The position numbers and the translations under genes are program-made. 64,000 bases of DNA from Rhizopus arrhizus (lineage: Eukaryota > Mucoromycota > Mucoromycetes > Mucorales > Rhizopodaceae), in the NCBI GenBank assembly GCA_024220505.1, contig JAKZZE010000035.1:310001-374000 (forward strand), written 5' to 3'. Below, piece by piece: positions 1,308 through 64,000 of the stretch; the first letter of the stretch is position 1; each line of letters opens with the position of its first letter. The notes under the pieces are model-generated. The model saw only the letters and a list, made by a program, of their open reading frames with translations. It was not told where the DNA came from and did not search any database.

Positions 1308-1572
1308 TGAAAAAAAAAATTATAAAAATAAATTTGAACCTTCCAAAAACTAAAATTGAAGCTCTTTTATATTCATAAAATAATTTACTTAAAGGATCAT
1401 GTTATTGTTTTGCTTGATTAATACTATGAGCCACATGGTAATAACATTATTTGTTTTTTTAATCGAAGTCTCGTTCATTACTTATTAAAGTAAAATATAT
1501 AAATAACATTCAAAACTTAAACAATCATTGTACCACCCTTTATTTGTGAAAAAAAAAAAAAAAAAAAAAAAA

Positions 1573-4088: not shown

Positions 4089-7000
4089 ATGCAATCTGTT
4101 ATAACTTCTACATTTGTCGGTGTATTTTTCCCTCATTCAATTGAGTTTGATCGAAATAATGATAAAGGATATTTCTTACTTTACGAACCTTATAAGGCGT
4201 AGGTTAAATGAAAGTTGTTTATGGGATAAATTAATTCAGATTGAATCAATAAATCTCGGTTGTTTCCAAGAAGCTCACAAAAGATTTCTTTATAGCAACT
4301 ATAGTGTAAAAGTCATTGCTAATGTGAATTTAGTTCAAGAGATGATTTGTGGATATGATAGCGAATGGGATATCTCTAGAACAAGTGAAAGAAAAGATCC
4401 CTTAATACTATTTGCAACAGGCGTAATGAAGCAGCAGCCAACCGTAAGAGCGTTTTTGGGTAGGGTTGTGGAAGAAAAATTCCATATGCAGGCACTTGCT
4501 TTGACAATCATACCAGGTATCTCACTTGTTCCAGAAAGATTAAAAGATTTGGTCCATCCTCAAGTTGCCCCTCTTCAACTAAATGAGGGTGTTAAAGAGG
4601 GATATTTTTATGTAAACCTATCGATGAATCAAGAATTCTCAAATGGACCTGAATTTTACGAAAACACCACAAATAGGGAAGAGCTTGGTAAGATCAAATT
4701 TATTTATTGAAAAAAGTGCTATATCCGCATTTTTAAATATATTACTACTATCTACTAGATGATTATGAAAGAGAAATTTTAGAAGGCCGAAGAAGAAATC
4801 AGGAAGCTCGTGGTAACGATGTCGAAATTCCAAATTTCGCTGGCAACAACGAAGAACGACAATATAATCAGTATTTTACTGATGAAGATGAGCCCTATGT
4901 GCCTCCAGAAAACCTATTGTATGTTAGGCGTATGTCTGATTCAAGTGAAAACTCGCAAAGAAATGATAGACATTCAAGTGAAAACTCGCATATAAATGAA
5001 AGACATACCCATCAGAGAAACAATTTTCCTGAAGACATTTTGAGAAGCAACCATGAGGATCTGAGTCAGTTAGAAGATCAATGGGGAGCAAAACAGACAA
5101 GAGATAGTGAAGTTTTTACTCATAATAATTTATCAGAGTTTGATGGTATGTTTCTAAAAAGCCTTTACAATATGCATAAATAGCCAAACCAGACAATAAA
5201 ATCTCCAAACATGAATTGATTATTTTGTTATCTCTTTAGAAGCTAGTAGAAGTGGATCAGAAGATACTATTAAAGAATCAAAGGGGCAGGGAATGACCAT
5301 CCCATCATCCAAAAGGGCATCAAATCCTTCAAATAGTACAAATTCGGAACAAACTAGACATAACTCAAGCAATTACAATGGTAAGAAACATAATTGCGAG
5401 CGCATTCAAAGCAAATTTTTCGTATATCTCACAACAAAAAAAAAGATTTTCTTCAGAAAATAGTACGAAATGGTCAAAACAGCCGCTTCAATGAAGACGA
5501 TCCTATGGAAGAAGGCAGTAGAAGTACAGTGTTGTCTGTTCAAGGCAATAGAAGTCATTCATTTACATCTGATGCGTCTCTTGCTGACTCGGAAGCATCG
5601 TTGACAAAAGATTTTGGAAACTTGTTTAACTTTTCATTTGCAAACAATTTTAATCGTGAGTGTTTACTTTTAAATGAACCCTTGCTTCTTTATGTAGTTT
5701 TAAGCTATTGTCGTATATTCATAGATGAAAGAACTTTTGAAAAAGTGAGCCAGCCCAAACGCAATGAGAGTGGACCTCTTTTGAAACGTAAGAGAAATGC
5801 TTTGAAGGTACATACAGTAGCGGACAAAACTGGTGCACAAAAATTAAAATCAACATTGTATCTCCGCCATATGTCTGCGACTTTTGTGGCATATACCATC
5901 TGAAAGACAGTCCAAAATATACATTATGTTATGTAAACCGGAACTGTGCCGGACATCCCCCAGGCATAAGGTCATTTTTAGTGATTTTTCGCATATTTCA
6001 ATTTTCGCCAAAAATGTAGTGCTTGTCTAGCCTTCTTTCAATTTTCCCCATATCTCTCCCGTTTGCTTTCAGATTTCACAGCATATTAGTGAATTTTAGT
6101 AGCTCTTAAGAAATAGATAAAACTGTACTTATTTTGTATTTCCCATTGAGTCCCCCCTTTTGTTTTTACCCTATTCACTATAACAAAGTACTAGCCTTAT
6201 ATGTTTAAGAAAATAAGCAACTGTAAAAACGAAACTCTGAGATCTCGAACACGCCTAGTTCGTACGACAGCAGATATTTCTAGAGTAACAAGGATCTCTA
6301 AATGGACAATCAACAGGAGAAAGAGGGAAGAAAGAAACTTAATGTCTTGTGATCATGAAGGTCTCCCGCTTTTAGTCTGAAAAGTTACTAGCTCAATCAC
6401 CAACCTAAAGCTTGGACAAGGTCCGTTACACACAGTTTCTGATGCTCAGCACATTTTGAGGACCTTAAGTTACAGTATTAGCAAATTGTCAGTCTGAAGG
6501 CACTGTAGGAAGCTAGATTTTGAGTCTGGAAGTAAGGAATCGAAGAATTTCATCAGCTGTATTAGCCGGAAAAAGCGATGAATGTGGTATCACGACAAGC
6601 CATTGTATACAATAGAGGGCTGGAAGTCTGCTATCTTTAGCAATGAAACAAATATGAACATTATGGATGCAGATAGCATACACTAATATTGAAAGCAAGT
6701 CGAGCAACCTGAGCGATTTTTTCACGATGATCAAACAATGAAGCATGCTGGCTGCTCTGTTATGTTTTAAGGCTGTATTAGATATTGAGGACCGGAATAT
6801 GTGTGTCAAGTATATGATGGTATAATGAACTCATAAATATACACATATATTTCGCTTACTTCATACCACAAAAGCCTAGTGTATAGTGGTCTAAAACGTC
6901 GTAATCTCTCGTTTCAGTATGACAATGACACAAGGCACAAGTCGACGCATGTCACAAACTCAATATTTGATAACAGCGCTTCTGTGCTACAAGTTTAGCC

Positions 7001-12587: not shown

Positions 12588-12664
12588 ATGTGACAAAACA
12601 ATGTTGAGCAAAAATATCGCAAAACGAAAAGTATTAACAGTTCAAATGAATATTAACTAACTAT

Positions 12665-12746
12665 CGTCACCAACAGGATTTGAACCTGTGCGGGCAGAGC
12701 CCATATGATTTCTAGTCATACTCCTTAACCACTCGGACATAGTGAC
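12665..12746 (-). tRNA. tRNA-Ser(AGA)
   Basis: The 82-nt minus-strand sequence starts GTCACTATGTCCGAGTGG and folds into a 7-bp acceptor stem (GTCACTA with TGGTGAC, discriminator G). It has an anticodon loop CTAGAAA with anticodon AGA, a long class II variable arm (GGGCTCTGCCC) and a T arm with GGTTTGAATCC. Box A (TGTCCGAGTGG) and box B are intact. No CCA is encoded, as expected for a nuclear gene. The gene's own upstream flank has been pushed 5.6 kb away by the LINE that begins at its first nucleotide. Confidence 0.95.
12732..12746. repeat. Target duplication, left copy (tRNA-Ser nt 1-15)
   Basis: CTCGGACATAGTGAC is the first 15 nt of the tRNA gene in reverse complement and recurs exactly at 18342-18356; the bases on either side differ. 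Confidence 0.9.
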
Positions 12747-13103
12747 ACGTTCTTTCGTGTTTCTGATTGTTACACCAACTTTTGTCTGGCTAAACAATCA
12801 CCCGCATACACTTCTTTAAAGAAAACCTATCAATCCGTCATTAGTTCAATACATCCATCAAGAAACAACATTACTCCACTTACACCACCTTCTTCAACTC
12901 AAAACTCATCAAATAATACAGTTTCAAAGATTCAAGAAGAAACTACAATCCACAGCAAAACCAGTAACCAGGAACCTATTTCCTCCTCCTCCTACACCGC
13001 CCCTACTAAGCGCACCCTCTCCGACCGCTCACCACAACTTCAACCCTTTGATCAAGTGAGCCGTCCCAATCGCAAGGTAAAGTCACATAATATCGACTTT
13101 ATC

Positions 13104-14141
13104 ATGAATCCTAATGCTACTCTTGACTTTGGGCCCACCCAACAGCCTACTCACCAGTCTCCAGTGCTCACAGTGGACCAACCACTTGACTTTGGATTGC
13201 CTTCTTCCGTCCCGGATTGGTTCCGGCCCTTCCAAGCCAGGCTTCTTCACGTGGAGTCTTTGGTCCAAGAGAACCAACGCCTTCGAGAGGAGCTCAAGGT
13301 AGCTCAGACCCGTATTGCTGAACTTGAGGCCCCTCAAGCCCAACCACCACAACAACAGCCCAAGCCCCGCGCTGGCACTGAGGCATCAAAGTGGAAATCG
13401 ACTCCTCCTCCTCCTCAACCCACTGCTACTCCTGCCCCCTATAAGGCAGCTGCTTTAAAGGGAAAGAAAAACGCCCCTCCTGCGCACAAGCCTCCCACCA
13501 CTCGCCCTCGCAAGGTGTTGTCCACCAGACAACTTCAAGTGGTGGCACGTACATTCACTCCGGTATCCGGTACCCATGGGTACCAATACATATACCTCCC
13601 CTGCCGCTTCCGTGAGTCCATTGGTAATGCCCGTGCTAAGCTAGCCAAGCTACGCCTTGAGAACTCCCGAATTCTCCACTTGTATTACCCTACCAGCCGT
13701 GTAGTCGCCATCTTGGTTCACAATGACTACGTAGACCAGGCTTTGACTACACTCAACAAGGCAGGCATCAAGCCTCTGGAAGAGTTCAACCCTCGCGATG
13801 CTGCTAATCTTCGAGATTCCAAGTTTGCTGATCTCACAAATGACGAACGACATCTCAAGATGTGTGAGATTCACACCGCCTCTCTCCTTCGTGCCTTGGA
13901 TCGCGTACGCGTTGAAGTGCGTTCCTCAGTTGCACGTTCCTTTTTCAACAAGTCTTGGATCACCCAGGAGCAATACCAAGACTTCTTAAACAAGTCCCGC
14001 CCTCCACGTCAAGCCATCACCAAGGTCAAAACATCCTTCCTGGATGTTATTATGAATGAAGTTGATCCTCAAGACCCTCTTCCACCTATTCAAGATCAAC
14101 CTTCTCCTACTGGTGCTGGTGAACCAGCTGAAGAGATCTAA
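13104..14141 (+). CDS. LINE-Ser ORF1 protein
   Basis: The first in-frame ATG is at 13104 (MNPNATLDFG), giving 345 residues; the frame is open without any ATG from 12819. A coiled coil is visible (LLHVESLVQENQRLREELKV...IAELEA, about residues 47-76), then a Pro/Gln/Ala-rich linker. The conserved globular part that follows (YQYIYLPCRFRESIGNARAK ... RVVAILVHNDYVDQALTTLN) looks like an RNA-binding fold similar in layout to the RRM-like region of other LINE ORF1 proteins. There is no CCHC knuckle. In the family ORF1p coats the element RNA. The stop codon TAA shares its last base with the ORF2 ATG. Confidence 0.85.
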   Translation: MNPNATLDFGPTQQPTHQSPVLTVDQPLDFGLPSSVPDWFRPFQARLLHVESLVQENQRLREELKVAQTRIAELEAPQAQPPQQQPKPRAGTEASKWKSTPPPPQPTATPAPYKAAALKGKKNAPPAHKPPTTRPRKVLSTRQLQVVARTFTPVSGTHGYQYIYLPCRFRESIGNARAKLAKLRLENSRILHLYYPTSRVVAILVHNDYVDQALTTLNKAGIKPLEEFNPRDAANLRDSKFADLTNDERHLKMCEIHTASLLRALDRVRVEVRSSVARSFFNKSWITQEQYQDFLNKSRPPRQAITKVKTSFLDVIMNEVDPQDPLPPIQDQPSPTGAGEPAEEI

Positions 14142-17100
14142 TGAGTCAGGTAAATAATAATAATCATAATTTATACCCCCCTTCCTCTCCTTCGTCTATG
14201 CCAAATAATATCCTCTCTATTACCCTATGGAACACTAATGGTTGTGCTCGTCACACCATTGATGCCATTACTAACTCCATTCCTTTTACCCATCTACTGT
14301 TTCTTACCGAGACGTGGCTCTTGTCACCGTTGAGGTTTCTCACCAATTGGAAACAGTACCATACGTATGCAATACCAGTAGACAACACCTACCGTGGTGA
14401 AATGGGAATCAGTCTCTTGGTCCACCCTGATTGCCCATATGAAGTCACTCATTTTCCATCCACCTCTCCTTACGTCCTCACCTGTCAAGTCTCCAACATG
14501 CTGATTCACTGTGTTTACCTGCCACCAGCACTATCAGTCGATGAAGCTATGGAAATACTTGACAATTTACCCGTACAAACCCACCCATCACAACAAAACA
14601 CCATCATCTGCGGCGACTTTAACGCTCGACACCGTGAGATGCTTGGTGATAACCGCACCACCCGTCGTGGCACTGCTCTGAACAACTGGATCGTCGAGAA
14701 TGGTTTACGCTGTTGGAATTCTGAACTTGCGTTTGGAATACCCACGTATAATTCGCACACACGATTCAGCTCCATGACAGGCCGACATTTCCATAGTGTT
14801 ATTGACCTTTTCCTTAGCACGCAGGACCTCCACAACGCACAATTAAGAGTCCATGACGATCTTGCTCTCGGGTCTGATCATAGTCCTCTGTCTCTTTCTT
14901 GTCTTGTGCCTCCCCCTCCTCCTCCTTCAAGTCACCCTCGTCTGCTCTGGAACCTAAGTAGATTATCCGAACATGATTGTACCTATGTGCAATTAGTCAA
15001 GGATAAGCTACGACCGTTCCTTCAGTTGCTTCAAGAATATACCTCTGCAGATGGTGTCTACACCTCTGTACGTCCCGATCTTGATGCACTGACTCTTCAA
15101 TTCAATGAGATTATCCAGTCTAGTTTGGATCAGTCCATCGGTCGCAAGAGCCCTCACAGTCGCCACCATGCTTGGTTCTGGACAGCCGACCTGCAGGCCG
15201 CGTTCGACCATCGCGAGTCCTGTAGACGTGCTTGGAAAAGAGCCTCTGGTCCTAGCAAAGCTGCAAGATGGACCGACTATACTTTGGCATGCTTGCGGTA
15301 CAAGTCTGAACTTCGTCGTCGACGTCGCTTCACTTGGAAACAGTTTTGTCACAAGTTGTCATATGGTCCTCTTGCTGATACTAACTCCATTGTCAGTAGG
15401 ATTAAGCGCAATCGGGTAGTTCAACCACAATTCTCTCATCCCGAGGGTTCCCGTGTTGCTGCTTCTGTCATGGCAAGACACCTCCAACAGGTGTTCTCTG
15501 GTGTAAACCTGCCTGACACTCGTTACCCTGCCCCACTCATTCCCAATGGTCCTCATCCCATAGATGAAGCCAGCTGTCCCATAACGACCAGTACAGTACA
15601 CCATGCTTTGTTGAAACGTCTTTCGAGACGCAAAGCCCCTGGTGTCGATCACCTCCGTACTGAAATGCTGTTGCCGATCGCGGATGAGGTCATTCCAGTG
15701 ATTACTCTCCTTTTTCAACTTTGTTGGAAGTGGTCATCGGTCCCCTCGGCCTGGTGTACTGCTCAAGTAGTCCCTATCTACAAGAAAGGAGATGCCTTAG
15801 ACCCAGGTAACTATAGACCAATCTCACTCACCTCGATCATGCCCAAGCTATTCGAGTTGTGCCTGCAGCAGGAGCTGGAATCCACTGCCCCACCACTTGA
15901 TCCTGTCCAAGGTGGGTTTCGACATCATCGTAGTGCGCTCGATCAAGCCTTATGCTTGCATGAGCTGTGCCGACAACACACTATCGACCACTCCGGTGAA
16001 CCACCTGTCCTTGCCTTCTTGGACATCAAGTCGGCCTATGACACTGTTGACCGTGCTATTGTATGGCGTGCTCTTGAGACACATGTCTCTGAGCCCATGC
16101 TTGGCATCCTTCAGTGTCTATTCGATCAGGTAAGTATAGAGGTATTACTTGCTGGACACTCTTCACCTTCGTTCTGGCCTCGTACTGGTGTACTGCAAGG
16201 TTCAATCCTCTCTCCCTTCCTGTACTCTGTGTACATCAACTCTCTTCCTGCTGTCCTTCGGGATATTCGCTTGCCTGTCTCTGCACGATATTACAGTACC
16301 ATGCCCCAACGCGAGTTCGGTGGCCTCTGGATAAATTGTTTGCTGTATGCTGATGATGTCGTTTTGATTGCTGCTCCTGAGGTTATGCCAAAGTTGCTCA
16401 AGAAAGCAGAAGAACACTCTCAGTCACTCGGTTATCGGTGGAATCCTGCCAAGTGTGTCGTGCTTAACTGCCCTAGTGACCATGGAGGACGTCGAATGAA
16501 GCTCTACGGGTCACCCATACCCAAGGAATCTTCGTTCACTTATCTTGGCGTTCCTTTCAGTCCACAGGGTAAGATTGCCACTGACCATCTTATTCGTAGG
16601 AACTCAGCCTCTGCTATCTCTGCCATGCGTGCGACTCTGTTGCCAATTGGTATTAGATCAGCAAGCTTCTCTCGACTCATGGCCAGCCGTCTCTATGCTA
16701 CCTTTATTAGGCCCAAGTTTGAGTACGGTCTGTGTATATGTACCTTCCTGGTCAAGCAGTTGGCTCTATTAGAAAAGGCTCAAGACCAGTGTCTCCGTAT
16801 GGCTTTTGGTGGTCATCGTACATCATCCACCACTGTCTACAAGCATTTGGTCAACCTTCCATCCATGAAAGAACGTGCCAATATCTTGGTCTTCAAGTTC
16901 ATCCTCCGAGTCCACTTCCTCCCTGAAGATACCCTCCTCTCTCTCCTTCTGCGCTTTGTACAAGAGGCTCCTGCTCGTAGTCGTTTTCGTTGGCCGGCCT
17001 TAGTAGCGTCAAACCCACTATGGTCCAACCCAGCGTTAAATGGTGGTCATGCTTCAACAGCTAACCGCATTGCTCACTTTACCTGCGTCGCTCATGTTCG

Positions 17101-17632
17101 TCTGTGTACTGAGACTTATCGCGAGCTCAATCTAGCAGCGATATATCAAAAACCAAAGCCTCCAGTCCTTCTCTCTGCTTGCCGTCCGTACCATTGTGTA
17201 GACCCAATCCTTACATTACCGATGAGCGTCTACGATCGTAGTCGTCTTCTTAGGTGGCGTATGGGTTGGCTACCAGGTCGTCCTATCGCCTGTCGCTGTG
17301 GTCACCCACATGCATCTAGAGCACATCTGTTGAGCTGCCTTCGGGTGGCGATACGCTTAAAAGTTGCTCTCAACACTCGCCCTAATCCGCTGGATTATGT
17401 GCTGAATCAGTTGCCCCGCAAGCTTCCCGCTCGTCATTCTCCTCCTCTTCTCTCTCGCTGGTCCGCTTGGTGGCCGGTTGTTTGTACCATCTTGTTTGAA
17501 ATAGAACAAATCTGTCAACCTGATGAAGAATTTTCCCCTACAGCATCCGATACATCAGGCTCATTACTCCTAGACAAACTCAAGCCAGCTACAACTGCGC
17601 ATCTCTCCACTTTACTGTCAACTGCTGAATAA
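14141..17632 (+). CDS. LINE-Ser ORF2: endonuclease and reverse transcriptase
   Basis: The 1163-residue frame is uninterrupted. Residues about 25-250 form an apurinic-like EEP endonuclease (LWNTNG, LTETWL, IICGDFNARH near 155, GSDHSPLS near 244). The reverse transcriptase follows: RRKAPGVDHLRTEML, VVPIYKKGD, NYRPISLTS, QGGFRHHRSALDQ, AFLDIKSAYDTVD (motif A) and LLYADDVVLI (YADD at about 736-739). A C-terminal zinc motif C-x-C-x8-H-x3-C starts at about residue 1051. I see no RNase H domain. The endonuclease would make the first nick in tRNA box A and the RT would copy the RNA from that end. All key residues are present, so it could be active. Confidence 0.93.
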   Translation: MSQVNNNNHNLYPPSSPSSMPNNILSITLWNTNGCARHTIDAITNSIPFTHLLFLTETWLLSPLRFLTNWKQYHTYAIPVDNTYRGEMGISLLVHPDCPYEVTHFPSTSPYVLTCQVSNMLIHCVYLPPALSVDEAMEILDNLPVQTHPSQQNTIICGDFNARHREMLGDNRTTRRGTALNNWIVENGLRCWNSELAFGIPTYNSHTRFSSMTGRHFHSVIDLFLSTQDLHNAQLRVHDDLALGSDHSPLSLSCLVPPPPPPSSHPRLLWNLSRLSEHDCTYVQLVKDKLRPFLQLLQEYTSADGVYTSVRPDLDALTLQFNEIIQSSLDQSIGRKSPHSRHHAWFWTADLQAAFDHRESCRRAWKRASGPSKAARWTDYTLACLRYKSELRRRRRFTWKQFCHKLSYGPLADTNSIVSRIKRNRVVQPQFSHPEGSRVAASVMARHLQQVFSGVNLPDTRYPAPLIPNGPHPIDEASCPITTSTVHHALLKRLSRRKAPGVDHLRTEMLLPIADEVIPVITLLFQLCWKWSSVPSAWCTAQVVPIYKKGDALDPGNYRPISLTSIMPKLFELCLQQELESTAPPLDPVQGGFRHHRSALDQALCLHELCRQHTIDHSGEPPVLAFLDIKSAYDTVDRAIVWRALETHVSEPMLGILQCLFDQVSIEVLLAGHSSPSFWPRTGVLQGSILSPFLYSVYINSLPAVLRDIRLPVSARYYSTMPQREFGGLWINCLLYADDVVLIAAPEVMPKLLKKAEEHSQSLGYRWNPAKCVVLNCPSDHGGRRMKLYGSPIPKESSFTYLGVPFSPQGKIATDHLIRRNSASAISAMRATLLPIGIRSASFSRLMASRLYATFIRPKFEYGLCICTFLVKQLALLEKAQDQCLRMAFGGHRTSSTTVYKHLVNLPSMKERANILVFKFILRVHFLPEDTLLSLLLRFVQEAPARSRFRWPALVASNPLWSNPALNGGHASTANRIAHFTCVAHVRLCTETYRELNLAAIYQKPKPPVLLSACRPYHCVDPILTLPMSVYDRSRLLRWRMGWLPGRPIACRCGHPHASRAHLLSCLRVAIRLKVALNTRPNPLDYVLNQLPRKLPARHSPPLLSRWSAWWPVVCTILFEIEQICQPDEEFSPTASDTSGSLLLDKLKPATTAHLSTLLSTAE

Positions 17633-17659
17633 TTCCTTGCTGTTTACTTATAGACTACA

Positions 17660-17690
<31 letters not shown>

Positions 17691-18341
17691 ACAAAACAAA
17701 AACTAAAAAAAAAAAAAAAAAAAAAACAAACAAAAAAAACAAAAACTAGAAAAGAAAAACATAGCTTTTACTACCTCACGCCATTTGGCTTTCTTTAACT
17801 CCGCCCAGTCCCTGACTGTTGGCTCTACTTTTACCTGTTCAAAATAGAAAAAAAAAAAAAAAAAAAAAAAACATTCTTTATATATTATCTAATTCTCTGT
17901 ACACACAATTGTAGCTATTAACCTCCTATTTAATAGCTCTCAAAATCTACTTTACCAGCTGCTATAGCATTCTTGCTCCTTTTGGACATCCATCTTGGCC
18001 TTTGTGCCTCCATATATCTTTCTTTACTGGTTTCGGCCCTACCAATTGATCTATCATCTGCCAGTACCATCTGTGCCCCTCAATCCAACCTCCTATCGCG
18101 CTTTGTCGCACTTCACTCTTGCTCTCTTGGTCTCTGTTGCCCCCTCCACCTCTTGTCATACAAGCTATCCATGTCGATCACCTCTTTCAAGATCCGATTC
18201 CTGCGAACCTCTTACACCTTTTTTCAGTTCTACTGTTTTTTATTACAATTTCATATTACACATGTAATAACCACTCCAAGGCGAGGCACTATGCTCACAC
18301 TAGCGACGCCTCCATGCCTTTTAATAAAGAAAATCTTTTAT

Positions 18342-18356
18342 CTCGGACATAGTGAC
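18342..18356. repeat. Target duplication, right copy (orphan tRNA-Ser head)
   Basis: CTCGGACATAGTGAC repeats 12732-12746 exactly. What follows (GCTTTCTTTCTGTC) is presumably the original upstream flank of the tRNA-Ser gene. Confidence 0.9.
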
Positions 18357-55434: not shown

Positions 55435-55506
55435 GGGCTTCTCCGGGAATCGAACCCGGGACCTCTCGCACCCTAAGCGAGAATTATACCACTAAACCAA
55501 GAAGCC
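55435..55506 (-). tRNA. tRNA-Pro(AGG)
   Basis: The 72-nt minus-strand sequence begins GGCTTCTTGGTTTAGTGG. Acceptor GGCTTCT pairs with AGAAGCC (discriminator C); the anticodon stem CTCGC/GCGAG carries loop TTAGGGT with anticodon AGG; the T arm has GGTTCGATTCC. Box A is TGGTTTAGTGG. No encoded CCA. A T9 run about 50 nt downstream could serve as terminator. The LINE at 55507 starts at the base next to its first nucleotide. Confidence 0.96.
55492..55506. repeat. Target duplication, left copy (tRNA-Pro nt 1-15)
   Basis: CTAAACCAAGAAGCC recurs exactly at 60520-60534; the preceding bases differ (A versus T). Confidence 0.92.
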
Positions 55507-55701
55507 ACTTTTCTTTCGCTTTTGGTTAAAAAGGTAAACTTGACTCTTTTTTGGAAAGCCGATATCTCTGTCAAATCTATCCATCCATCAACAATTTTTA
55601 CATCAATCGACTCCTTTTGATCTATACTTTTATTTGGTTCAACTCTTATTCTGATATCTTTACTGCTTGTTGCTTAATCGTTGCTGAAAGTTTGCATCCA
55701 A

Positions 55702-56688
55702 ATGTCATCAACAAGAAATACTAGAGGATCCAAAATCCTGAATGCCGCCGCCGGACCCAATTCGTCCGAGCTCGAAGTCACAGTTCAGAATCTAAGTCAC
55801 GCACTGGAAGCTGTCACTGCTCGTCTCTCTGCTTTAGAGCAGCTCAAGCTAGAGCTTGAAACTCTGCGAGGTGAGAACGCTCGCCTTACCGAAACAAACC
55901 TGTCTCAGGCCAATGAGATTGCTTCCTTGCGGTCCCAACTGGCCGCACAAACTGCCGGGGTCCCTACAAGCACCCCTAATTCAACTACCGCTGTTTCTTC
56001 TGCTGCCGCTCATAATGGTGCTAAAGAGTCCGTTCCTTCGCCCTCCTTGGGTACTGCTGCCTCTTCTTGGGCTACTGTTGTTTCTCGTTCTGCCAAGAAC
56101 AAACTCCGTCGTCGTGCCGCTGCTGCTCGTGGTTTCCAGCCTGTAACTGGTGAACAAGGCTTCGAGTATGTTTACATACCTCGCTCTCGTAGGATGACCT
56201 ACACCGAAGCTCGTCGTCGTCTCTCTCGTCTTGGTGTGGATAGCTGGCGCATCTTGGATGTGTGCTATCCTGCTCACTCTGTTGTCGGTCTGCTCGTACA
56301 TCTGCAGTACAAGCCTGCTCTTCTGTCCTTGCTCGAAAAGGCCAAGATCCCCACCTTGGATACTTTCGATCCACTTGACCCTGCCAACCTGGCCGATCCC
56401 AAGTTTGACTCTGTTTCTGTCGAGGAGCGTAGCCATGCTATCTCACTGATTAATGATGATCGTTCTCGCAAGGCTTTAGAGCGCTTGCGCTATCCTGTTG
56501 CTGTCTCTGTCTCTCGTTACTTGTTGGCGCAAGCCCTTGTCTCTGATGAGACAGTATCTGAAGTTCTGTCTGCTAAGGAAGATCGACCCAAGACTGCCCG
56601 CCATTACGATGATATGGCTGAAGACATGGCTCTTGATGACTATGAGCATCACCGTCCTGCCTCTCGCTCTAGCTTTGGATCATTATAA
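55702..56688 (+). CDS. LINE copy A ORF1 protein
   Basis: The first ATG, 55702 (MSSTRNTRGSKILNAAAGPN), gives 328 residues; the frame upstream is closed by TAA at 55675. A clear coiled coil covers about residues 25-84 (LEVTVQNLSHALEAVTARLS ... NEIASLRSQLAAQ). After a Ser/Thr-rich linker comes the RNA-binding-like region (FEYVYIPRSRRMTYTEARRR, DVCYPAHSVVGLLVHLQYK, LEKAKIPTLDTFDPLDPANL). This region is clearly homologous to LINE-Ser ORF1. The stop codon overlaps the ORF2 start. Confidence 0.9.
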   Translation: MSSTRNTRGSKILNAAAGPNSSELEVTVQNLSHALEAVTARLSALEQLKLELETLRGENARLTETNLSQANEIASLRSQLAAQTAGVPTSTPNSTTAVSSAAAHNGAKESVPSPSLGTAASSWATVVSRSAKNKLRRRAAAARGFQPVTGEQGFEYVYIPRSRRMTYTEARRRLSRLGVDSWRILDVCYPAHSVVGLLVHLQYKPALLSLLEKAKIPTLDTFDPLDPANLADPKFDSVSVEERSHAISLINDDRSRKALERLRYPVAVSVSRYLLAQALVSDETVSEVLSAKEDRPKTARHYDDMAEDMALDDYEHHRPASRSSFGSL

Positions 56689-59600
56689 TGATGAGTAGTA
56701 ATACTTGTCATTATAATGCATCCTTGGTCTCTACATCTGGTATGGTCCCAGATCAGTCAACTCCTTCCTCTCCTTTGGTTTCCTCTGGTTCTCATGGCTC
56801 CCATGGTCCATCCTCTCCTTCGTCATCGTCATCAACTTCTTCTATTCCGCTCACAATCGGCTTGTGGAATGCCAATGGGCTTCAAGAATCCACAGCCGAG
56901 GATCTCCTCCGTCACTGCCAGTCGTTCTCTTTGGTCTTCATCACTGAAACCTGGTTGCTTCCGCCTCACAGGATCCGTACCTCTTGGACCCAGTTCAACC
57001 TGTATGGCTCTCCTGTGATCAACAGCTATCGTGGCTCTCAAGGTGTCTCTGCTCTGGTGTCTCCTCGGTGTCCGATGGCTGTGGTACAGTTCCCGGTTCA
57101 TACCAAGTATGCTCTGGGTCTGCGGTTGGGTCGCTCCTTGCGTCTCATCTGCCTGTATTTGCCTCCTTCCTTGTCCAACGACGAGGTCTCTTCTGTGTTG
57201 GTTTCGTTGCCCTTGACAGACGACACGATCATCTGTGGTGATCTGAACGCGCGTCTTGGTGCACTAACGGGTGATTCCGTTGCCAATGCTCGAGGTTCGG
57301 TGCTGCTTCGCTGGTGTGAAGAACATGGTCTTTCTGTTCTGAACTCGACTCTCGCTCCTGGGGTACCTACTTTCTTGTCCTTTCGTGGTGGTCAAGTCAA
57401 GCAAAGTATGATCGACTACTTCTTGACCAACACGACCTCTGTCCTTCGGTCCCCTCGGATGCAAGTCTACAGTGATCTCTCTCTTGGCTCTGACCACAAA
57501 CTGTTGTCCTTGTCCTTTGACTATGCAGTCCCTGATGGTTATCCATCGCAGCCCGTTCTCTCTTCTTCTTCTTCTGCCCGTCGGCTATGGAACCTCTCTC
57601 GGTTGAAGGAACCCGATGTCTGTAGTCTGTACGTGGCCACATTCCAGTCCTTGGTCTCTCCATTGGTTGATCAGCTCAAAGCTCTGAAGTCAAGTCCTCC
57701 TTCTGCTGCTCCGCCTATAGACGCTCTCAATGACACTCTGAATGAGGCGATCTATAGTGCACTCGACAAGTCGGTTGGCTCTCGCTCTTCTCGACCTTCC
57801 CAATGGAAGCCATTCTGGAATGCGCACTTGCAAGAACTCGCCGATGTTCGTGAACACCACTACCGCAAGTGGCGTCGTGCCATTGGCATCGACAAGGCCT
57901 TGTGGTGGGATCGACATCAGGCTGCTCAAGCCCGGTTCCGCTCTGCTCTCAAGTCTGCTAAGCGTCTCTCTTGGCGTGCTTTCTGTGACTCTCTGGCCCG
58001 TGGCGAACTTGCTCGTGCGATGTCGAAGGTGAAGGTGATTCGGAACCGACGACGTCAACAGGTTGGGTTTACTCATCCTGACGGCCCTGCTGCAGGTGCG
58101 AACGCGATGCGTCAACACCTTGCCTCGGTCTACTCTGGTGACGGTCTTCCGTCAAGGCGTCCTGACCCTCTGCCCTCTGTCTCTGGTATGGTGCCTTTTG
58201 ACCTCGATAGTCAAGACCCTGGTATGCCCTCGTTCTCTGCTGACAGTGTGGGTTCACTGATGCGACGTCTCCCTCTGCGTAAAGCTCCTGGTCCTGACCA
58301 CTTGCGTACGGAGATGCTTCTCCCCATCAAGTCTGTTCTGGCCCCACTGCTCTCTTTGCTTTTCAGTATCTGCTACCAGTGGTCATATACCCCTTCTCTC
58401 TGGCGTCAAGCTCAGGTGGTCCCCATCCACAAAAAGGGTGATCCTACCTCGCCAGGGAACTATCGTCCAATCTCCTTGACCTCCATCGTCCGCAAGCTCT
58501 TTGAGATGTGTCTCTTTCCCTCTGTTGAAGATGTCTCTCCTCCGCTCGATGTAGTTCAAGGTGGTTTCCGTCACCAGCGTAGTGCATTGGATCAAGCTCT
58601 CTGTCTCCATGATCTGATGCACGCTTACCGACGCCGACACAATCATTATCCTGTGGTCGCTTTCCTGGACATCAAGTCAGCCTATGATACAGTCGATCGT
58701 CGTATCATATGGCAATCGATGCTCGCCTCTTCTGCTCCTCTGTCCTTGGTGTCCTTGTTGGCCAACATGTTTGATGATGTCTCGGTGTCTGTGTTGTTGC
58801 AGAACAATGTCTCTGATCCGTTTGTGCCGAGTACAGGTGTCCTTCAGGGCTCTGTCTTGAGTCCTCACCTGTATTCTATCTATGTCAACACATTGCCAGC
58901 TCTGCTTCGTTCTGCTGCTTCTGCAACAACCACCTCGGTGCTATCCGTGTCTCCTTCTGGTCCTCCTTGTCCTGGTGCTCTGGTCTCCGATGGTCTTCCC
59001 TTTGGTCCTTTGGTTGGTACTGCTGCTTTGTCTTCCTCGTCTCTGTCGCCCACACCCATCAACAGTCTGTTGTATGCGGATGATGTGGCGCTGGTTGGGT
59101 CTGCTAGCGAAGTTCGGCATATGCTGGACCTAGCGCAGATCCACTCCTTGACTCTTGGTTACAAGTGGAGTCCACCAAAGTGTGCCGTCCTTAATGCACC
59201 TACTGCCACCTCAAGTCGGTATGTTCGAATGTCATTATATGATCAAGACCTTCCCTCTGTTGAGGAGTTTACTTATCTTGGTGTGCCCTTTGATGGTAAG
59301 GGTATTTCTGTCTCTGCTCTGATAAAGCATCGCGCTTCTGGTACTTTTGCTGCCATGGCTCAGCTCCATTCGATGGGACTCAACCGTCAAGGCTTTACTC
59401 TGCTGCTCTCTTCTCGTCTGTTCGCTGCGTTCATACGTCCTAAGCTTGAGTATGGCCTAGCCATTGCTCAACTTACAAGAAAGGACTATGACGAACTCAA
59501 TCGCGCGCAAGACCGATGTCTAAGGATGCTTGTCGGTGGTCATCGAACTGCTTCAACTGTAGTATTTCGGCATATTACCAATCTACCGTCAATGTCTTTC

Positions 59601-60257
59601 CGTGCTGACACTTTGGTGCTCAAGTTCTGCCGTCGTTCTGAGGGTCTACCTGATGATTGTCTCTTGTCTTTGCTGTCTCAATCTGTGCCAGTATCTCTTC
59701 TGTCTCGACTCCGTAAGCGGCGTATCGTACTCGACTACCCTTCGGATGCTCCTCTTTCGTCTTCTCGTCTTGCTTCTTGGTTGCGAAGGTATCGTCAAGA
59801 CCAGTTTCATAGCTTCTTACAGTCCACCCCACAAGTTCTGATCCGCGCTTGTCGTCCTGTTCTTCGGGTGGATCCCATCCTGTACTTGCCTGCCTCCCGT
59901 GCTGACCGGTCTCGTCTTGTTAGATGGCGCATGGGTTGGATCCCAGGCAAGCCTGCTCCCTGTTCCTGTGGTCTTGGCGATACTTCTCGCTCGCATCTTA
60001 TGGTCTGTACCTTGGTTCCTTCTGCTCTTTGGTGCTGCTTACCTGTTCCGCCGACTGGTTATGTGGGTCATCACATAGACTATGTCTTGAACTTGCTTCC
60101 TGTCTCTGCTTCTGCTCGGTGTCCGCCCTTTTGGTCCGCTCTTTGTCAGATCCTCTGTCACTTTGACAAGATCTGTCATCCTGACATCGAGTACAACTCG
60201 TCTTCTGCTCCAGGTCAAGTCTGGATTGACAAGTCCTCTGCTGCTGCTGTTCCATAA
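56688..60257 (+). CDS. LINE copy A ORF2: endonuclease and reverse transcriptase
   Basis: The 1189-residue frame is uninterrupted. EEP endonuclease: LWNANGLQES, FITETWLLPP, IICGDLNARL (about 180), LGSDHKLLSLS (about 267). Reverse transcriptase: RKAPGPDHLRTEMLLP, VVPIHKKGD, NYRPISLTSIVRK, QGGFRHQRSALDQ, AFLDIKSAYDTVD, then LLYADDVALVG with YADD at about 796-799. The C-terminal zinc motif CSCGLGDTSRSHLMVC (C-x-C-x8-H-x3-C) begins near 1092. Compared with LINE-Ser ORF2 there is a longer Ser/Pro-rich insert before the YADD block. No RNase H domain was seen. All catalytic motifs are present. Confidence 0.95.
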   Translation: MMSSNTCHYNASLVSTSGMVPDQSTPSSPLVSSGSHGSHGPSSPSSSSSTSSIPLTIGLWNANGLQESTAEDLLRHCQSFSLVFITETWLLPPHRIRTSWTQFNLYGSPVINSYRGSQGVSALVSPRCPMAVVQFPVHTKYALGLRLGRSLRLICLYLPPSLSNDEVSSVLVSLPLTDDTIICGDLNARLGALTGDSVANARGSVLLRWCEEHGLSVLNSTLAPGVPTFLSFRGGQVKQSMIDYFLTNTTSVLRSPRMQVYSDLSLGSDHKLLSLSFDYAVPDGYPSQPVLSSSSSARRLWNLSRLKEPDVCSLYVATFQSLVSPLVDQLKALKSSPPSAAPPIDALNDTLNEAIYSALDKSVGSRSSRPSQWKPFWNAHLQELADVREHHYRKWRRAIGIDKALWWDRHQAAQARFRSALKSAKRLSWRAFCDSLARGELARAMSKVKVIRNRRRQQVGFTHPDGPAAGANAMRQHLASVYSGDGLPSRRPDPLPSVSGMVPFDLDSQDPGMPSFSADSVGSLMRRLPLRKAPGPDHLRTEMLLPIKSVLAPLLSLLFSICYQWSYTPSLWRQAQVVPIHKKGDPTSPGNYRPISLTSIVRKLFEMCLFPSVEDVSPPLDVVQGGFRHQRSALDQALCLHDLMHAYRRRHNHYPVVAFLDIKSAYDTVDRRIIWQSMLASSAPLSLVSLLANMFDDVSVSVLLQNNVSDPFVPSTGVLQGSVLSPHLYSIYVNTLPALLRSAASATTTSVLSVSPSGPPCPGALVSDGLPFGPLVGTAALSSSSLSPTPINSLLYADDVALVGSASEVRHMLDLAQIHSLTLGYKWSPPKCAVLNAPTATSSRYVRMSLYDQDLPSVEEFTYLGVPFDGKGISVSALIKHRASGTFAAMAQLHSMGLNRQGFTLLLSSRLFAAFIRPKLEYGLAIAQLTRKDYDELNRAQDRCLRMLVGGHRTASTVVFRHITNLPSMSFRADTLVLKFCRRSEGLPDDCLLSLLSQSVPVSLLSRLRKRRIVLDYPSDAPLSSSRLASWLRRYRQDQFHSFLQSTPQVLIRACRPVLRVDPILYLPASRADRSRLVRWRMGWIPGKPAPCSCGLGDTSRSHLMVCTLVPSALWCCLPVPPTGYVGHHIDYVLNLLPVSASARCPPFWSALCQILCHFDKICHPDIEYNSSSAPGQVWIDKSSAAAVP

Positions 60258-60519
60258 TGACAAGCGCTCCGATCCACCCTCTGGCTTCTACCTCCCACTG
60301 CCAAACCATTTTAGTGCACGATGCGGAGGAGACCATGGTGTTGACGAGTTGCTCGGTAGTTAGCGTATCCATTGGCCTTTTCTCCTTCCTTTTTTTCACT
60401 TTTGTGTGCTCTGCGAGTGTTTTTTGTTTCTTGTCTTTTCTTTTTGTTCTTGAGTATGACTATCATGATATTTATCGCCTGTCAATATACTCATTATATA
60501 TATTAATAAAAATTTTCGT

Positions 60520-60534
60520 CTAAACCAAGAAGCC
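60520..60534. repeat. Target duplication between LINE copies A and B
   Basis: CTAAACCAAGAAGCC is an isolated 15-nt head of the tRNA-Pro gene. It is shared as right duplication of copy A and left duplication of copy B. Confidence 0.92.
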
Positions 60535-60729
60535 ACTTTTCTTTCGCTTTTGGTTAAAAAGGTAAATTCGACTCTTTTTTGGAAAGCCGATATCTCTGTC
60601 AAATCTATCCATCCGTCAACAATTTTTACATCAACCGACTCCTTTTGATCTATAGTTTTATTTGGTTCAACTCTTATTCTGATATCTTTGCTACTTGTTG
60701 TTTAATCGTTGCTGAAAGTTTGCATCCAA

Positions 60730-61716
60730 ATGTCAACAACAAGAAATACTAGAGGATCTAAAATCCTGAATGCCGCCGCCGGACCCAATTCGTCCGATCT
60801 CGAAGTCACTGTCCAGAATCTAAGTCACGCACTAGAAGCCGTTACTGCTCGTCTCTCTGCTCTAGAACAGCTTAAGCTAGAGCTTGAAACCTTACGAGGT
60901 GAGAATGCTCGCCTTGCCGAAACCAATGAATCTCTATCCAATGAGGTTGCTTCTCTGCGTGCTCAATTAGCCGCACAATCTGCCGGGGTCCCTACAAGCA
61001 CCCCAAGTTCAAATGCCGCTCTTTCTTCTGCTGCTCCTTTTAATGGTGCTAAAGAGTCCGTTCCTTCGCCCTCCTTGGGTACTGCTGCCTCGTCTTGGGC
61101 TACCGTTGTCTCTCGTTCTGCCAAGAACAAACTCCGTCGCCGTGCTGCCGCTGCTCGTGGATTCCAGCCTGTGTCTGGTGAACAAGGCTTTGAGTATGTT
61201 TACATACCTCGCTCTCGTAGGATGACCTACACTGAAGCTCGTCGTCGTCTCTCTCGCCTTGGTGTGGATAGCTGGCGCATCTTAGATGTGTGCTATCCTG
61301 CTCACTCTGTTGTCGGTCTTCTTGTACACCTTCAGTACAAGCCCGCTCTTCTGTCCTTGTTGGAAAAGGCCAAGATTCCCACCTTGGATACCTTTGATCC
61401 TCTTGACCCTGCAAACCTTGCTGATCCCAAGTTTGACTCTGTTTCTGCTGAAGAGCGTAGTCATGCTATCTCGCTGATCAACGATGACCGCTCTCGCAAG
61501 GCTTTAGAGCGCTTGCGCTATCCTGTTGCTGTCTCCGTCTCTCGCTACCTATTAGCACAAGCCTTGGTCTCAGATGAGACAGTATCCGAAGTTCTGTCTA
61601 CCAAACAAGATCGACCCAAGACTGTCCGCCATTACGATGATATGGATGAAGACATGGCTCTTGATGACTATGAGCATCACCGTCCTGCCTCTCGTTCAAG
61701 CTTTGGATCATTATAA
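60730..61716 (+). CDS. LINE copy B ORF1 protein
   Basis: ATG at 60730 (MSTTRNTRGSKILNAAAGPN), 328 residues, intact. Same layout as copy A: coiled coil at about 25-84, then the RNA-binding-like region. Most differences from copy A fall in the coil and linker (for example NESLSNEVASLRAQLAAQSA). It ends in the TAATG overlap at 61714-61718. Confidence 0.9.
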   Translation: MSTTRNTRGSKILNAAAGPNSSDLEVTVQNLSHALEAVTARLSALEQLKLELETLRGENARLAETNESLSNEVASLRAQLAAQSAGVPTSTPSSNAALSSAAPFNGAKESVPSPSLGTAASSWATVVSRSAKNKLRRRAAAARGFQPVSGEQGFEYVYIPRSRRMTYTEARRRLSRLGVDSWRILDVCYPAHSVVGLLVHLQYKPALLSLLEKAKIPTLDTFDPLDPANLADPKFDSVSAEERSHAISLINDDRSRKALERLRYPVAVSVSRYLLAQALVSDETVSEVLSTKQDRPKTVRHYDDMDEDMALDDYEHHRPASRSSFGSL

Positions 61717-64000
61717 TGATGAGTAGTAATACTTGTCGTTATAATGCATCCTCGGTCTCTACTACTGGTATGGTCCCAGTCCCTTCCTCTCCTTTGGTTT
61801 CCTCTGGTTCTCATGGCTCCCATGGTCCATCCTCTCCTTCATTCTCATCATCTTCTATCCCGCTCACAATCGGCTTGTGGAATGCCAATGGGCTTCAAGA
61901 ATCCACAGCCGAGGATCTCCTCCGTCACTGCCAGTCGTTCTCTTTGGTCTTCATCACTGAAACCTGGTTGCTTCCGCCTCACAGGATCCGTACCTCTTGG
62001 ACCCAGTTCAATCTGTATGGCTCTCCTGTGATCAACAGCTATCGTGGCTCTCAAGGTGTCTCTGCTCTGGTGTCTCCTCGGTGTCCGATGGCTGTGGTAC
62101 AGTTCCCGGTTCATACCAAGTATGCTCTGGGTCTGCGGTTGGGTCGCTCCTTGCGTCTCATCTGCCTGTATTTGCCCCCTTCCTTGTCCAACGACGAGGT
62201 CTCTTCTGTATTGGTTTCGTTGCCCTTGACAGACGACACGATCATCTGTGGTGATCTGAACGCGCGTCTTGGTGCACTAACGGGTGATTCCGTTGCCAAT
62301 ACTCGAGGTTCGGTGCTGCTTCGCTGGTGTGAAGAACATGGTCTTTCTGTTCTGAACTCGACTCTCGCTCCTGGGGTGCCTACTTTCTTGTCCTTTCGTG
62401 GTGGTCAAGTCAAGCAAAGTATGATCGACTACTTCTTGACCAACATGACCTCTGTCCTTCGGTCCCCTCAGATGCAAGTCTATAGTGATCTCTCTCTTGG
62501 CTCTGACCACAAACTGTTGTCCTTGTCCTTTGACTATGCAGTCCCTGATGGTTATCCATCGCAGCCCGTTCTCTCTTCTTCTTCTTCTGCCCGTCGGCTA
62601 TGGAACCTCTCTCGGTTGAAGGAACCCGATGTCTGTAGTCTGTACGTGGCCTCATTCCAGTCCTTGGTCTCTCCATTGGTTGATCAGCTCAAAGCTCTGA
62701 AGTCAAGTCCTCCTTCTGCTGCTCCGCCTATAGACGCTCTCAATGACACTCTGAATGAGGCGATCTATAGTGCACTCGACAAGTCGGTTGGCTCTCGCTC
62801 TTCTCGACCTTCCCAATGGAAGCCATTCTGGAATGCGCACTTGCAAGAACTCGCCGATGTTCGTGAACACCATTACCGCAAGTGGCGTCGAGCCATTGGC
62901 ATTGACAAGGCCTTGTGGTGGGATCGACATCAGGTTGCTCAAGCCCGTTTCCGTAGTGCTCTCAAGTCTGCCAAACGTCTCTCTTGGCGTGCTTTCTGTG
63001 ACTCTCTGGCCCGTGGCGAACTTGCTCGTGCGATGTCGAAGGTGAAGGTGATTCGGAACCGACGACGTCAACAGGTTGAATTTACTCATCCTGACGGCCC
63101 TGCTGCAGGTGCGAACGCGATGCGTCAACACCTTGCCTCGGTCTACTCTGGTGACGGTCTTCCGTCAAGGCGTCCTGACCCTCTGCCCTCTGTCTCTGGT
63201 ATGGTGCCTTTTGACCTCGATAGTCAAGACCCTGGTATGCCCTCGTTCTCTGCTGACAGTGTGGGTTCACTGATGCGACGTCTCCCTCTGCGTAAGGCTC
63301 CTGGTCCTGACCACTTGCGTACGGAGATGCTCCTCCCCATCAAGTCTGTTCTGGCCCCACTGCTCTCTTTGCTTTTCAGTATCTGCTACCAGTGGTCATA
63401 TACCCCTTCTCTCTGGCGTCAAGCACAGGTGGTCCCCATTCACAAAAAGGGTGATCCTACCTCGCCAGGGAACTATCGTCCAATCTCCTTGACCTCCATC
63501 GTCCGCAAGCTCTTTGAGATGTGTCTCTTTCCCTTTGTTGAAGATGTCTCTCCTCCGCTCGATGTAGTTCAAGGTGGTTTCCGTCACCAGCGTAGTGCAT
63601 TGGATCAAGCTCTCTGTCTCCATGATCTGATGCACTCTTACCGACGCCGACACAATCATTATCCTGTGGTCGCTTTCCTGGACATCAAGTCAGCCTATGA
63701 TACAGTCGATCGTCGTATCATATGGCAATCGATGCTCGCCTCTTCTGCTCCTCTGTCCTTGGTGTCCTTGTTGGCCAACATGTTTGATGATGTCTCGGTG
63801 TCTGTGTTGTTGCAGAACAATGTCTCTGATCCGTTTGTGCCGAGTACAGGTGTCCTTCAGGGCTCTGTCTTGAGTCCTCACCTGTACTCTATCTATGTCA
63901 ACACATTGCCAGCTCTGCTTCGTTCTGCTGCTTCTGCAACAACCACCTCGGTGTTATCGGTGTCTCCTTCTGGTCCTCCTGGTCCTGGTGCTCTGGTCTC
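61716..64000 (+). CDS. LINE copy B ORF2, partial
   Basis: It starts at the ATG overlapping the ORF1 stop and stays open to the window edge (about 761 codons). Endonuclease and reverse transcriptase motifs up to the block before YADD are as in copy A (LWNANGLQES, FITETWL, RKAPGPDHLRTEML, FLDIKSAYDTVD, GVLQGSVLSP). The YADD motif and C-terminal zinc motif lie beyond the edge. Whether the copy is intact to its end cannot be seen. Confidence 0.9.
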   Translation, partial: MMSSNTCRYNASSVSTTGMVPVPSSPLVSSGSHGSHGPSSPSFSSSSIPLTIGLWNANGLQESTAEDLLRHCQSFSLVFITETWLLPPHRIRTSWTQFNLYGSPVINSYRGSQGVSALVSPRCPMAVVQFPVHTKYALGLRLGRSLRLICLYLPPSLSNDEVSSVLVSLPLTDDTIICGDLNARLGALTGDSVANTRGSVLLRWCEEHGLSVLNSTLAPGVPTFLSFRGGQVKQSMIDYFLTNMTSVLRSPQMQVYSDLSLGSDHKLLSLSFDYAVPDGYPSQPVLSSSSSARRLWNLSRLKEPDVCSLYVASFQSLVSPLVDQLKALKSSPPSAAPPIDALNDTLNEAIYSALDKSVGSRSSRPSQWKPFWNAHLQELADVREHHYRKWRRAIGIDKALWWDRHQVAQARFRSALKSAKRLSWRAFCDSLARGELARAMSKVKVIRNRRRQQVEFTHPDGPAAGANAMRQHLASVYSGDGLPSRRPDPLPSVSGMVPFDLDSQDPGMPSFSADSVGSLMRRLPLRKAPGPDHLRTEMLLPIKSVLAPLLSLLFSICYQWSYTPSLWRQAQVVPIHKKGDPTSPGNYRPISLTSIVRKLFEMCLFPFVEDVSPPLDVVQGGFRHQRSALDQALCLHDLMHSYRRRHNHYPVVAFLDIKSAYDTVDRRIIWQSMLASSAPLSLVSLLANMFDDVSVSVLLQNNVSDPFVPSTGVLQGSVLSPHLYSIYVNTLPALLRSAASATTTSVLSVSPSGPPGPGALV

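Follow-up and report, generated by a model that had tools for sequence, protein, structure and literature searches.

A stretch of 64,000 nt from the Rhizopus arrhizus genome (assembly GCA_024220505.1, contig JAKZZE010000035.1, positions 310,001 to 374,000; hereafter the window) carries a full-length long interspersed nuclear element (LINE) that abuts, in opposite orientation, the 5′ end of a complete tRNA-Ser(AGA) gene and is followed on its other side by a second copy of the first 15 nt of the same gene. Read together with the junctions of related LINEs across the genome, this arrangement very probably reflects a site-specific LINE with an apurinic/apyrimidinic endonuclease-like (APE-type) domain that targets the 5′ part of tRNA genes, duplicating and regenerating its target, a reading that comes from sequence comparison.

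Two tRNA loci in the window

The 15-nt repeat (CTCGGACATAGTGAC, antisense to tRNA-Ser nt 1–15) has exactly two matches in the window, and none of 100 shuffled sequences contained two matches when one mismatch was allowed. As had been predicted from the letters of the window, a complete LINE lies between the two copies and the tRNA gene is rebuilt intact, being called as complete by both ARAGORN and Rfam. Both open reading frames (ORFs) of this element, the window representative of a family here named A, are open and the element is intact; the start of ORF2, which encodes an APE-like endonuclease and a reverse transcriptase (RT; RVT_1), overlaps the ORF1 stop in the sequence TAATG. An AATAAA motif lies near the 3′ junction, with no poly(A) at the junction itself, and at the 5′ junction the first few bases differ among LINE copies. 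The predicted 5.6-kb displacement of the upstream flank by the 5,595-bp LINE was borne out with one refinement: a start like that of a long terminal repeat (LTR), TGTCAAGAC..., is found at position 18367, 10 bp beyond the second CTCGGACATAGTGAC repeat, so that the displaced flank has itself been invaded. The same LTR-like start was also seen about 10 bp upstream of the tRNA +1 or of a tRNA remnant elsewhere (L037, L053 and L110), and this spot beside LINE 5′ ends is occupied repeatedly by several LTR-like types that end in CA.

Apart from tRNA-Ser, the one tRNA gene called in the window is tRNA-Pro(AGG), which has a like arrangement (Table 1). That is, the gene stands antisense at the 5′ end of a LINE of another family, K, which is followed by a 14-nt tRNA spacer and then by a second K copy running past the end of the window. 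The tandem K copies are 95.5% identical over ~3.5 kb, and the ORF2 protein of family K is 42.8% identical to that of the window family A element, with the same domains.

Table 1. Features of the tRNA-Ser and tRNA-Pro loci (positions within the window)
Feature	Position	Strand	Remarks
tRNA-Ser(AGA), complete gene, rebuilt target	12665..12746	-	Rfam; ARAGORN gives 12664-12747
5′ copy of 15-bp target-site duplication, tRNA-Ser nt 1–15	12732..12746	-	
LINE, family A, full length	12747..18341	+	5,595 bp
ORF1, family A	13104..14141	+	345 aa
ORF2, family A	14141..17632	+	1163 aa; APE-like endonuclease and RT
3′ untranslated region hairpin GGCGAGGC...GCCTCCATGCC, family A	18278..18320	+	
AATAAA shortly ahead of the 3′ junction, family A	18323..18328	+	
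3′ copy of target-site duplication, tRNA-Ser nt 15–1	18342..18356	-	
tRNA-Pro(AGG), second target	55435..55506	-	ARAGORN, Rfam
TAAACCAAGAAGCC, tRNA-Pro nt 14–1, 5′ copy of duplication	55493..55506	-	
LINE, family K	55507..60520	+	
ORF1, family K	55702-56688	+	
ORF2, family K	56688-60257	+	
TAAACCAAGAAGCC repeated, 14-nt spacer between tandem K copies	60521..60534	-	
Second, tandem LINE of family K	60535..64000	+	extends past window end

Association of LINE 5′ ends with tRNA genes

The genome (50.26 Mb, 41 contigs) was surveyed by searching at the protein level with the C-terminal portion of ORF2; 80 of 995 candidates were scored and fell into identity classes of about 98, 81, 78, 67, 63–65 and 45–50%. 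Families were named by their identity to the window ORF2 (A, 98%; B, 81%; C, 78%; D, 67%; E and F, 63–65%; J, 46%), family K being the LINE at tRNA-Pro, which gives eight families in total, and full copies as well as short junction pieces were retrieved. Before counting, the family A hits (20) were relieved of three interior fragments, two tRNA-only hits and one merged hit; five interior fragments, one family C hit (C6:2452), one distant hit (C4:1244587) and eight repeat family A hits were left out from a 40-hit set; two hits at C33 were merged. For family D the junctions come from 3 of the 18 main hits, and for family J from 10 of 40 listed hits (80 candidates).

Direct contact with an antisense tRNA gene, its 5′ end at the LINE, was found at 41 of the 76 resulting 5′ junctions (A 7, B 10, C 3, D 1, E 11, F 3, J 5, K 1), and the direct junctions read all fall within ~15 nt of the tRNA +1. 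Assuming 239 to 1000 tRNA genes and 40-bp windows, only about 0.01–0.06 such contacts would be expected among 76 junctions, which rules out a chance association; passages of PMC2699053 report 239 tRNA genes for R. oryzae. Another 14 junctions belong to tandem copies that come after some other element and abut what remains of a tRNA (A 4, B 1, D 2, E 1, J 5, K 1), four have an LTR-like insert between the LINE and the tRNA, with the tRNA and a stub resembling the LINE start beyond it (A 1, E 3), and one shows only tRNA-like sequence (L031). Among the 14 family A insertions, seven are directly at tRNA-Ser genes (AGA, CGA, TGA) and four are in tandem on a tRNA-Ser remnant, the others being one with an LTR-like insert before tRNA-Ser, one tRNA-like and one without a demonstrable tRNA. 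The family is thus not one that mostly lies away from tRNA genes. As a control, a related LINE family outside the eight, G, had no tRNA gene at any of its seven junctions, nor was one found for families H, I1 and I2, each sampled by a single junction piece.

The targets comprise genes for Ser (AGA, CGA, TGA), Thr (TGT, AGT, CGT), Met, Lys, Phe, Gly, Gln, Val, Asn, Glu, Pro, Ile and Ala, a tRNA of the CAT-anticodon type, and a longer tRNA gene that probably contains an intron (L102). Family E alone was found at Met, Lys, Phe, Thr and Gly genes, and half of the family J 5′ junctions read (5 of 10) start at tRNA-Ile or tRNA-Ala, the other five lying on a remnant of either. LINE-free Ser, Lys, Phe and Gln tRNA genes also exist. 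Two contig ends (C37 near 2396500-2401978 and C40 near 1-6101) share an arrangement of tRNA-Asn and a family B LINE, probably through subtelomeric duplication or assembly overlap.

Target-site duplications and the nick position

Of 24 presumed pairs of 5′ and 3′ junctions 23 could be parsed, and 19 were usable after exclusion of four rows from the C12 array that had the wrong tail. In all 19, a stretch derived from the tRNA or its start is common to both sides, so defining a target-site duplication whose length varies from 12 to 18 nt. In related families the 3′ repeat changes with the tRNA, and it is therefore a target-site duplication and not element sequence, against the possibility raised beforehand that it might be the element's own 3′ end.

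The position of the presumed first nick was tabulated for 22 rows, family C and the tRNA-Gly copy being set apart; in three of them (Ser-TGA, Thr-TGT and Ile) the two sides were taken from different copies. In 18 of the 22 rows the nick would lie after tRNA nt 14 or 15, in box A, and in the other four, all of family B, at nt 5–8; with four further sites added, including those of family C, the counts become 19 of 26 in box A, 6 of 26 at nt 5–8 and 1 of 26 upstream of the gene. The sites read GTCCGAG^TGG for Ser and GACCGAG^AGG for Ser-CGA, TAGCACAG^TGG for Thr, GGCTCA^GTTGG and similar for Met, Lys, Phe and Thr, ATAGTGTA^ATGG for Gln, TAGCTCAG^TTGG for Ile and TTGGTTTA^GTGG for Pro. A short motif at the nick characterizes individual families, namely CCGAG in A, GCTCA in E, GTGTA in F and CTT in B, and in family C the nick follows CTCA at nt 14 of tRNA-Thr(AGT), with a 14-nt match. 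The first two or three bases of the repeat are likewise common within a family (CTC in A, AAG in B, TG in E, TAC in F), which may reflect an endonuclease preference or pairing with the 3′ end of the RNA. The original prediction placed the nick of the window element on the tRNA sense strand after nt 15; this is the simplest reading, with the reservation that nt 12 and nt 15 are inseparable by sequence in family A because all its sites share CTC.

Relationships and coding capacity of the families

In an RT tree of 86 rows, families A to F form one group of 18 rows (Shimodaira–Hasegawa-like approximate likelihood ratio test value 99), in which the RT portions of E and A share 63% identity, whereas J and K belong to another deep group; G, H, I1 and I2, with no tRNA at the sampled site, are part of a third group, in which only G was sampled at several sites. 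The unrooted tree fits either one gain or one loss of tRNA targeting. ORF2 matches the Pfam families Exo_endo_phos_2 (E 1.6e-16), Exo_endo_phos (E 3.9e-10) and RVT_1 (E 3.4e-27), and among solved PDB structures its RT matches LINE-1 ORF2p (E 7.6e-16). The domains found are those of endonuclease and RT only, with the APE-like domain upstream of the RT: no RNase H domain was found by Pfam in ORF2 of families A and K, and neither a restriction-like endonuclease family nor a DDE transposase was among the domain matches. By these domains and by the variable length of the duplications, the elements are APE-type (L1-group-like) non-LTR retrotransposons, the RT trees having been built without reference clades. 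A low-confidence model of ORF1 has a coiled-coil helix at residues 38–74, a domain near 155–228 resembling an RNA recognition motif (ferredoxin-type) and a helical end, a predicted layout that resembles the one familiar from L1 ORF1p.

The overlap between the ORF1 stop and the ORF2 start measures 1 nt in A (14141 in the window) and K (56688), and 4 nt in families B, C and D (L020, L024, L028). SART1 uses such a stop/start signal for coupled translation. The family tails that were read have an AATAAA close to the 3′ junction, without poly(A) at the junction itself; families A to F and J finish in a tail resembling AAAATCTTTTA or AAAATCTTTAAC, and K finishes in AATTTTCGTC. One copy from each of the families A to E can form a hairpin of the pattern GGC-GAGRC...GYCTC-NNN(N)-GCC.

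Tandem arrays and other elements at the same sites

Several loci carry LINEs in series. At C12, four family A copies that are 99.9% identical to one another come after a tRNA-Ser(CGA) gene, with a tRNA remnant between copies, and among the 80 candidate copies of family J (40 scored) many lie ~4.9 kb apart. Other arrays are mixed: a family C element precedes a 5′-truncated E at tRNA-Thr, each followed by TGAGCCAAGAAGGC of that tRNA (L023), a family E element lies beside the 5′ end of a J-like LINE at tRNA-Phe, and two types of family D are stacked at C4. Mixed-family arrays are accounted for by re-insertion into the regenerated tRNA gene. The near-identity of some LINE copies suggests recent activity.

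Elements of other kinds were met in the same zone. At three family E sites with an LTR-like insert (C2:1890462, C6:1116679 and C41:437370) a tRNA gene (Met, Phe and Met, respectively) lies 1.2, 8.6 and 13 kb upstream, followed, as predicted, by ~10 nt like the LINE start and then by a TG... start; the 3′ flank at C2:1890462 has the predicted tRNA-Met bases, and a fourth candidate of this kind in family E is at C17:291848. The stub at C41:437370 is imperfect, and such stubs could also derive from another family with the same start. According to passages of PMC2699053, which are silent on LINEs in this respect, Ty3 elements of the R. oryzae genome often co-localise with tRNA genes.

Eight LINE 5′ stubs (L005, L006, L029, L030, L031, L036, L096 and L104) are cut tens of bp from the tRNA by an element ending in CACTGCA(AATAAT), the inverse of which, ATTATTTGCAGTG, is present elsewhere. 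The element, whose end is absent from the window, is perhaps a DNA transposon with a preference for tRNA upstream regions. In addition, a short sequence with an end like AATAAAAACATAAATTTTCGA, ~165 bp long in L138 and L142, precedes a 15-nt tRNA-Ile remnant and a LINE in L138, L141 and L142, and is found with tRNA-Thr in L069; it could be a truncated LINE or a short interspersed nuclear element at the same site.

Discussion

The arrangement of the junctions can be accommodated by target-primed reverse transcription. The LINE endonuclease would nick the sense strand of the tRNA gene, in most families inside box A beside A14/R15, and the freed 3′ end (GTCCGAG-3′ in tRNA-Ser) would prime reverse transcription of the LINE RNA, probably after annealing to 2–3 nt at the 3′ end of that RNA. 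A cut in the second strand ~12–16 bp away, at or just upstream of the tRNA +1, would then yield a complete tRNA gene, an antisense LINE and tRNA nt 15–1, in that order. The tRNA gene survives because the tRNA-proximal side retains nt 1 to the end, and since the gene stays whole it can be hit again, giving tandem LINE arrays with 14–15-nt tRNA spacers. The same position, orientation, tRNA-dependent duplication and tandem arrays recur across the families.

Several observations weigh against so uniform a picture. No adjoining tRNA could be demonstrated at 16 of the 76 5′ junctions (A 1, B 9, C 2, E 1, F 3). Ten of these 16 adjoin recurring CA-ending sequences shared with other LINE copies, often of another family, which we read as the ends of LTR elements inserted in the first bases of the LINE, and three carry tRNA bases on the 3′ side (14 nt in L055, 8 nt each in L016 and L021). 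The junctions are partly non-independent, since tRNA-Asn copies stand at contig ends, the flanks of two Glu(TTC) loci are similar and some array copies are nearly identical, and several pairs lie 7–30 kb apart on a contig, a single insertion being presumed. The exact nick is uncertain by two or three bases because the sites of a family share those bases. Moreover, each of the four family B rows has its nick after a CTT, with a duplication extending upstream of the gene; family C uses CTCA at nt 6 of an apparent tRNA-Glu at two sites, where the match is only 6 nt; in one family E copy the duplicated 12 nt lie immediately upstream of tRNA-Gly; and the 3′ flank of L015, a family B copy, fits none of the tRNA starts compared. 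In L022 and L132, too, only 6 nt of a tRNA start were matched in the 3′ flank.

Two other origins of the repeat can be set aside. Most family A 3′ flanks begin with CTCGG, which could pass for part of the LINE, and the 15-bp repeat might then be a tRNA-derived 3′ end of the element that matches the neighbouring gene incidentally. This is highly improbable and is ruled out by family E, in which copies with the same tail are followed by antisense Met, Lys, Phe or Thr gene sequence, or by a Gly flank, matching the tRNA on their own 5′ side. LINE machineries can form chimeras with small RNAs, so the adjoining tRNA could conceivably be a retro-copy made by template switching from the LINE RNA. A jump of this kind would join the 3′ end of the tRNA in sense orientation, whereas the tRNA lies in antisense and meets the LINE 5′ end with its own 5′ end, and tRNA bases are also present in the 3′ flank; the orientation excludes such an origin, to which we attach a practically negligible probability. 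As for the arrays, unequal recombination between LINE copies instead of repeated insertion would suit the four 99.9% identical copies at C12 and may have contributed some identical array copies, but the mixed arrays (C with truncated E at Thr, E with a J-like LINE at Phe, two D types) and the lower identity of the tandem K copies make it unlikely as the general explanation.

A more substantial question is what guides the LINE to its site, which could be the short motif at the nick, bound RNA polymerase III (Pol III) factors, or both. If the LINE reached the tRNA through bound TFIIIB or TFIIIC, as proposed for TRE5-A, and its endonuclease had little sequence preference, the nick would be expected to keep its position relative to the tRNA, as it does in most families despite sequence differences. 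The constant place beside A14/R15 speaks for a guide in the Pol III complex or the tRNA scaffold, and the use of the same upstream zone by LTR-like elements, the antisense orientation as in TRE5, and the interaction of the TRE5-A ORF1 protein with TFIIIB proteins described in passages of PMC5911963 point the same way. On the other hand, each family has its own short motif at the nick, and family C follows CTCA (nt 14 in Thr, nt 6 in Glu) and not the position, which speaks for direct reading of the DNA or annealing; for these reasons we lowered guidance by Pol III factors with little sequence preference from somewhat doubtful to rather improbable. We favour motif reading inside a zone set by the tRNA gene.

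Elements tied to tRNA genes are known from other organisms. By the account in passages of PMC5911963, TRE5 inserts ~44–54 bp upstream of tRNA genes in opposite orientation. The dictyostelid elements TRE5 and TRE3 resemble the present families in having two ORFs with APE endonuclease and RT, and TRE5 also in its antisense upstream placement, but they sit 44–54 bp upstream (TRE5) or 40–150 bp downstream (TRE3), whereas here the insertion is within ~15 nt of the tRNA +1. NLTR-A, placed 2–6 bp upstream of tRNA genes in passages of PMC5006619, comes near the 5′ ends of the present families and differs in its RNase H domain, none having been found here by Pfam. The sections of PMC5006619 and PMC5911963 consulted describe no duplication of tRNA nt 1–15 for NLTR-A or TRE5. 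Zebrafish Dewa, according to passages of PMC3706591, is a non-LTR element likewise tied to tRNA loci, but located in the spacer of tRNA-Leu and not in the gene. The same passages describe Dada DNA transposons, some of which target TAGCTC in box A of tRNA genes; each Dada family picks different tRNA genes, as here, but Dada has a DDE transposase and 6–7-bp duplications.

Grem-LINE1 of Mucor is an L1-like element with two ORFs, also from the Mucoromycotina, which is described as located in pericentric regions, with no tRNA link given in the passages concerned (PMC7377519). Among the titles and abstract openings listed in a search of open-licence literature, none concerned tRNA-targeted LINEs in Mucorales, which is weak evidence of absence.

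Among non-LTR elements, those related to NeSL carry a restriction-like endonuclease. Families specific to tRNA genes, NeSL-1_TV (tRNA-Pro), LIN15_SM (tRNA-Arg) and LIN25_SM (tRNA-Glu), are reported in passages of PMC4640811; they share with the present LINEs their non-LTR nature and tRNA-gene specificity and differ in being grouped with NeSL-related elements, an APE-like domain being present here. The original prediction had considered a regenerating site inside box A to be distinct from known tRNA-directed elements. This holds against TRE5, which inserts at a distance, but not in full, since tRNA-gene-specific non-LTR elements are in print, NLTR-A lies 2–6 bp upstream and Dada uses box A; the new part is therefore an APE-type fungal radiation that regenerates its target.

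There is perhaps an even chance that this APE-type radiation as a whole uses tRNA genes as renewable docking sites, most families cutting at the same box A position beside the invariant A14, each with its own 4–6-nt motif, so that the tRNA repertoire is partitioned and every insertion restores the target and pushes older copies outward. The motifs would then be CCGAG for Ser, GTGTA for Gln and probably Val, GCACAG for Thr, GCTCA for Met, Lys, Phe and Thr, GTTTA for Pro, and GCTCAG for Ile and Ala, with B and C following CTT and CTCA even to nt 5–8.

A LINE that cuts within the internal promoter of an essential tRNA gene and yet leaves the gene whole occupies a clear harmless niche, and its insertion mode lets LINEs line up beside a tRNA gene without breaking it. 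The NLTR-A 3′ flank merits re-reading for a tRNA duplication, and site-specific LINE enzymes are of interest for gene insertion. R. arrhizus, a single fungus in which no fewer than eight LINE families with differing isotype ranges occupy the 5′ part of tRNA genes, offers a natural series on target reading, in which one can ask whether the endonuclease is led to its site by DNA sequence, Pol III factors or RNA–DNA annealing.

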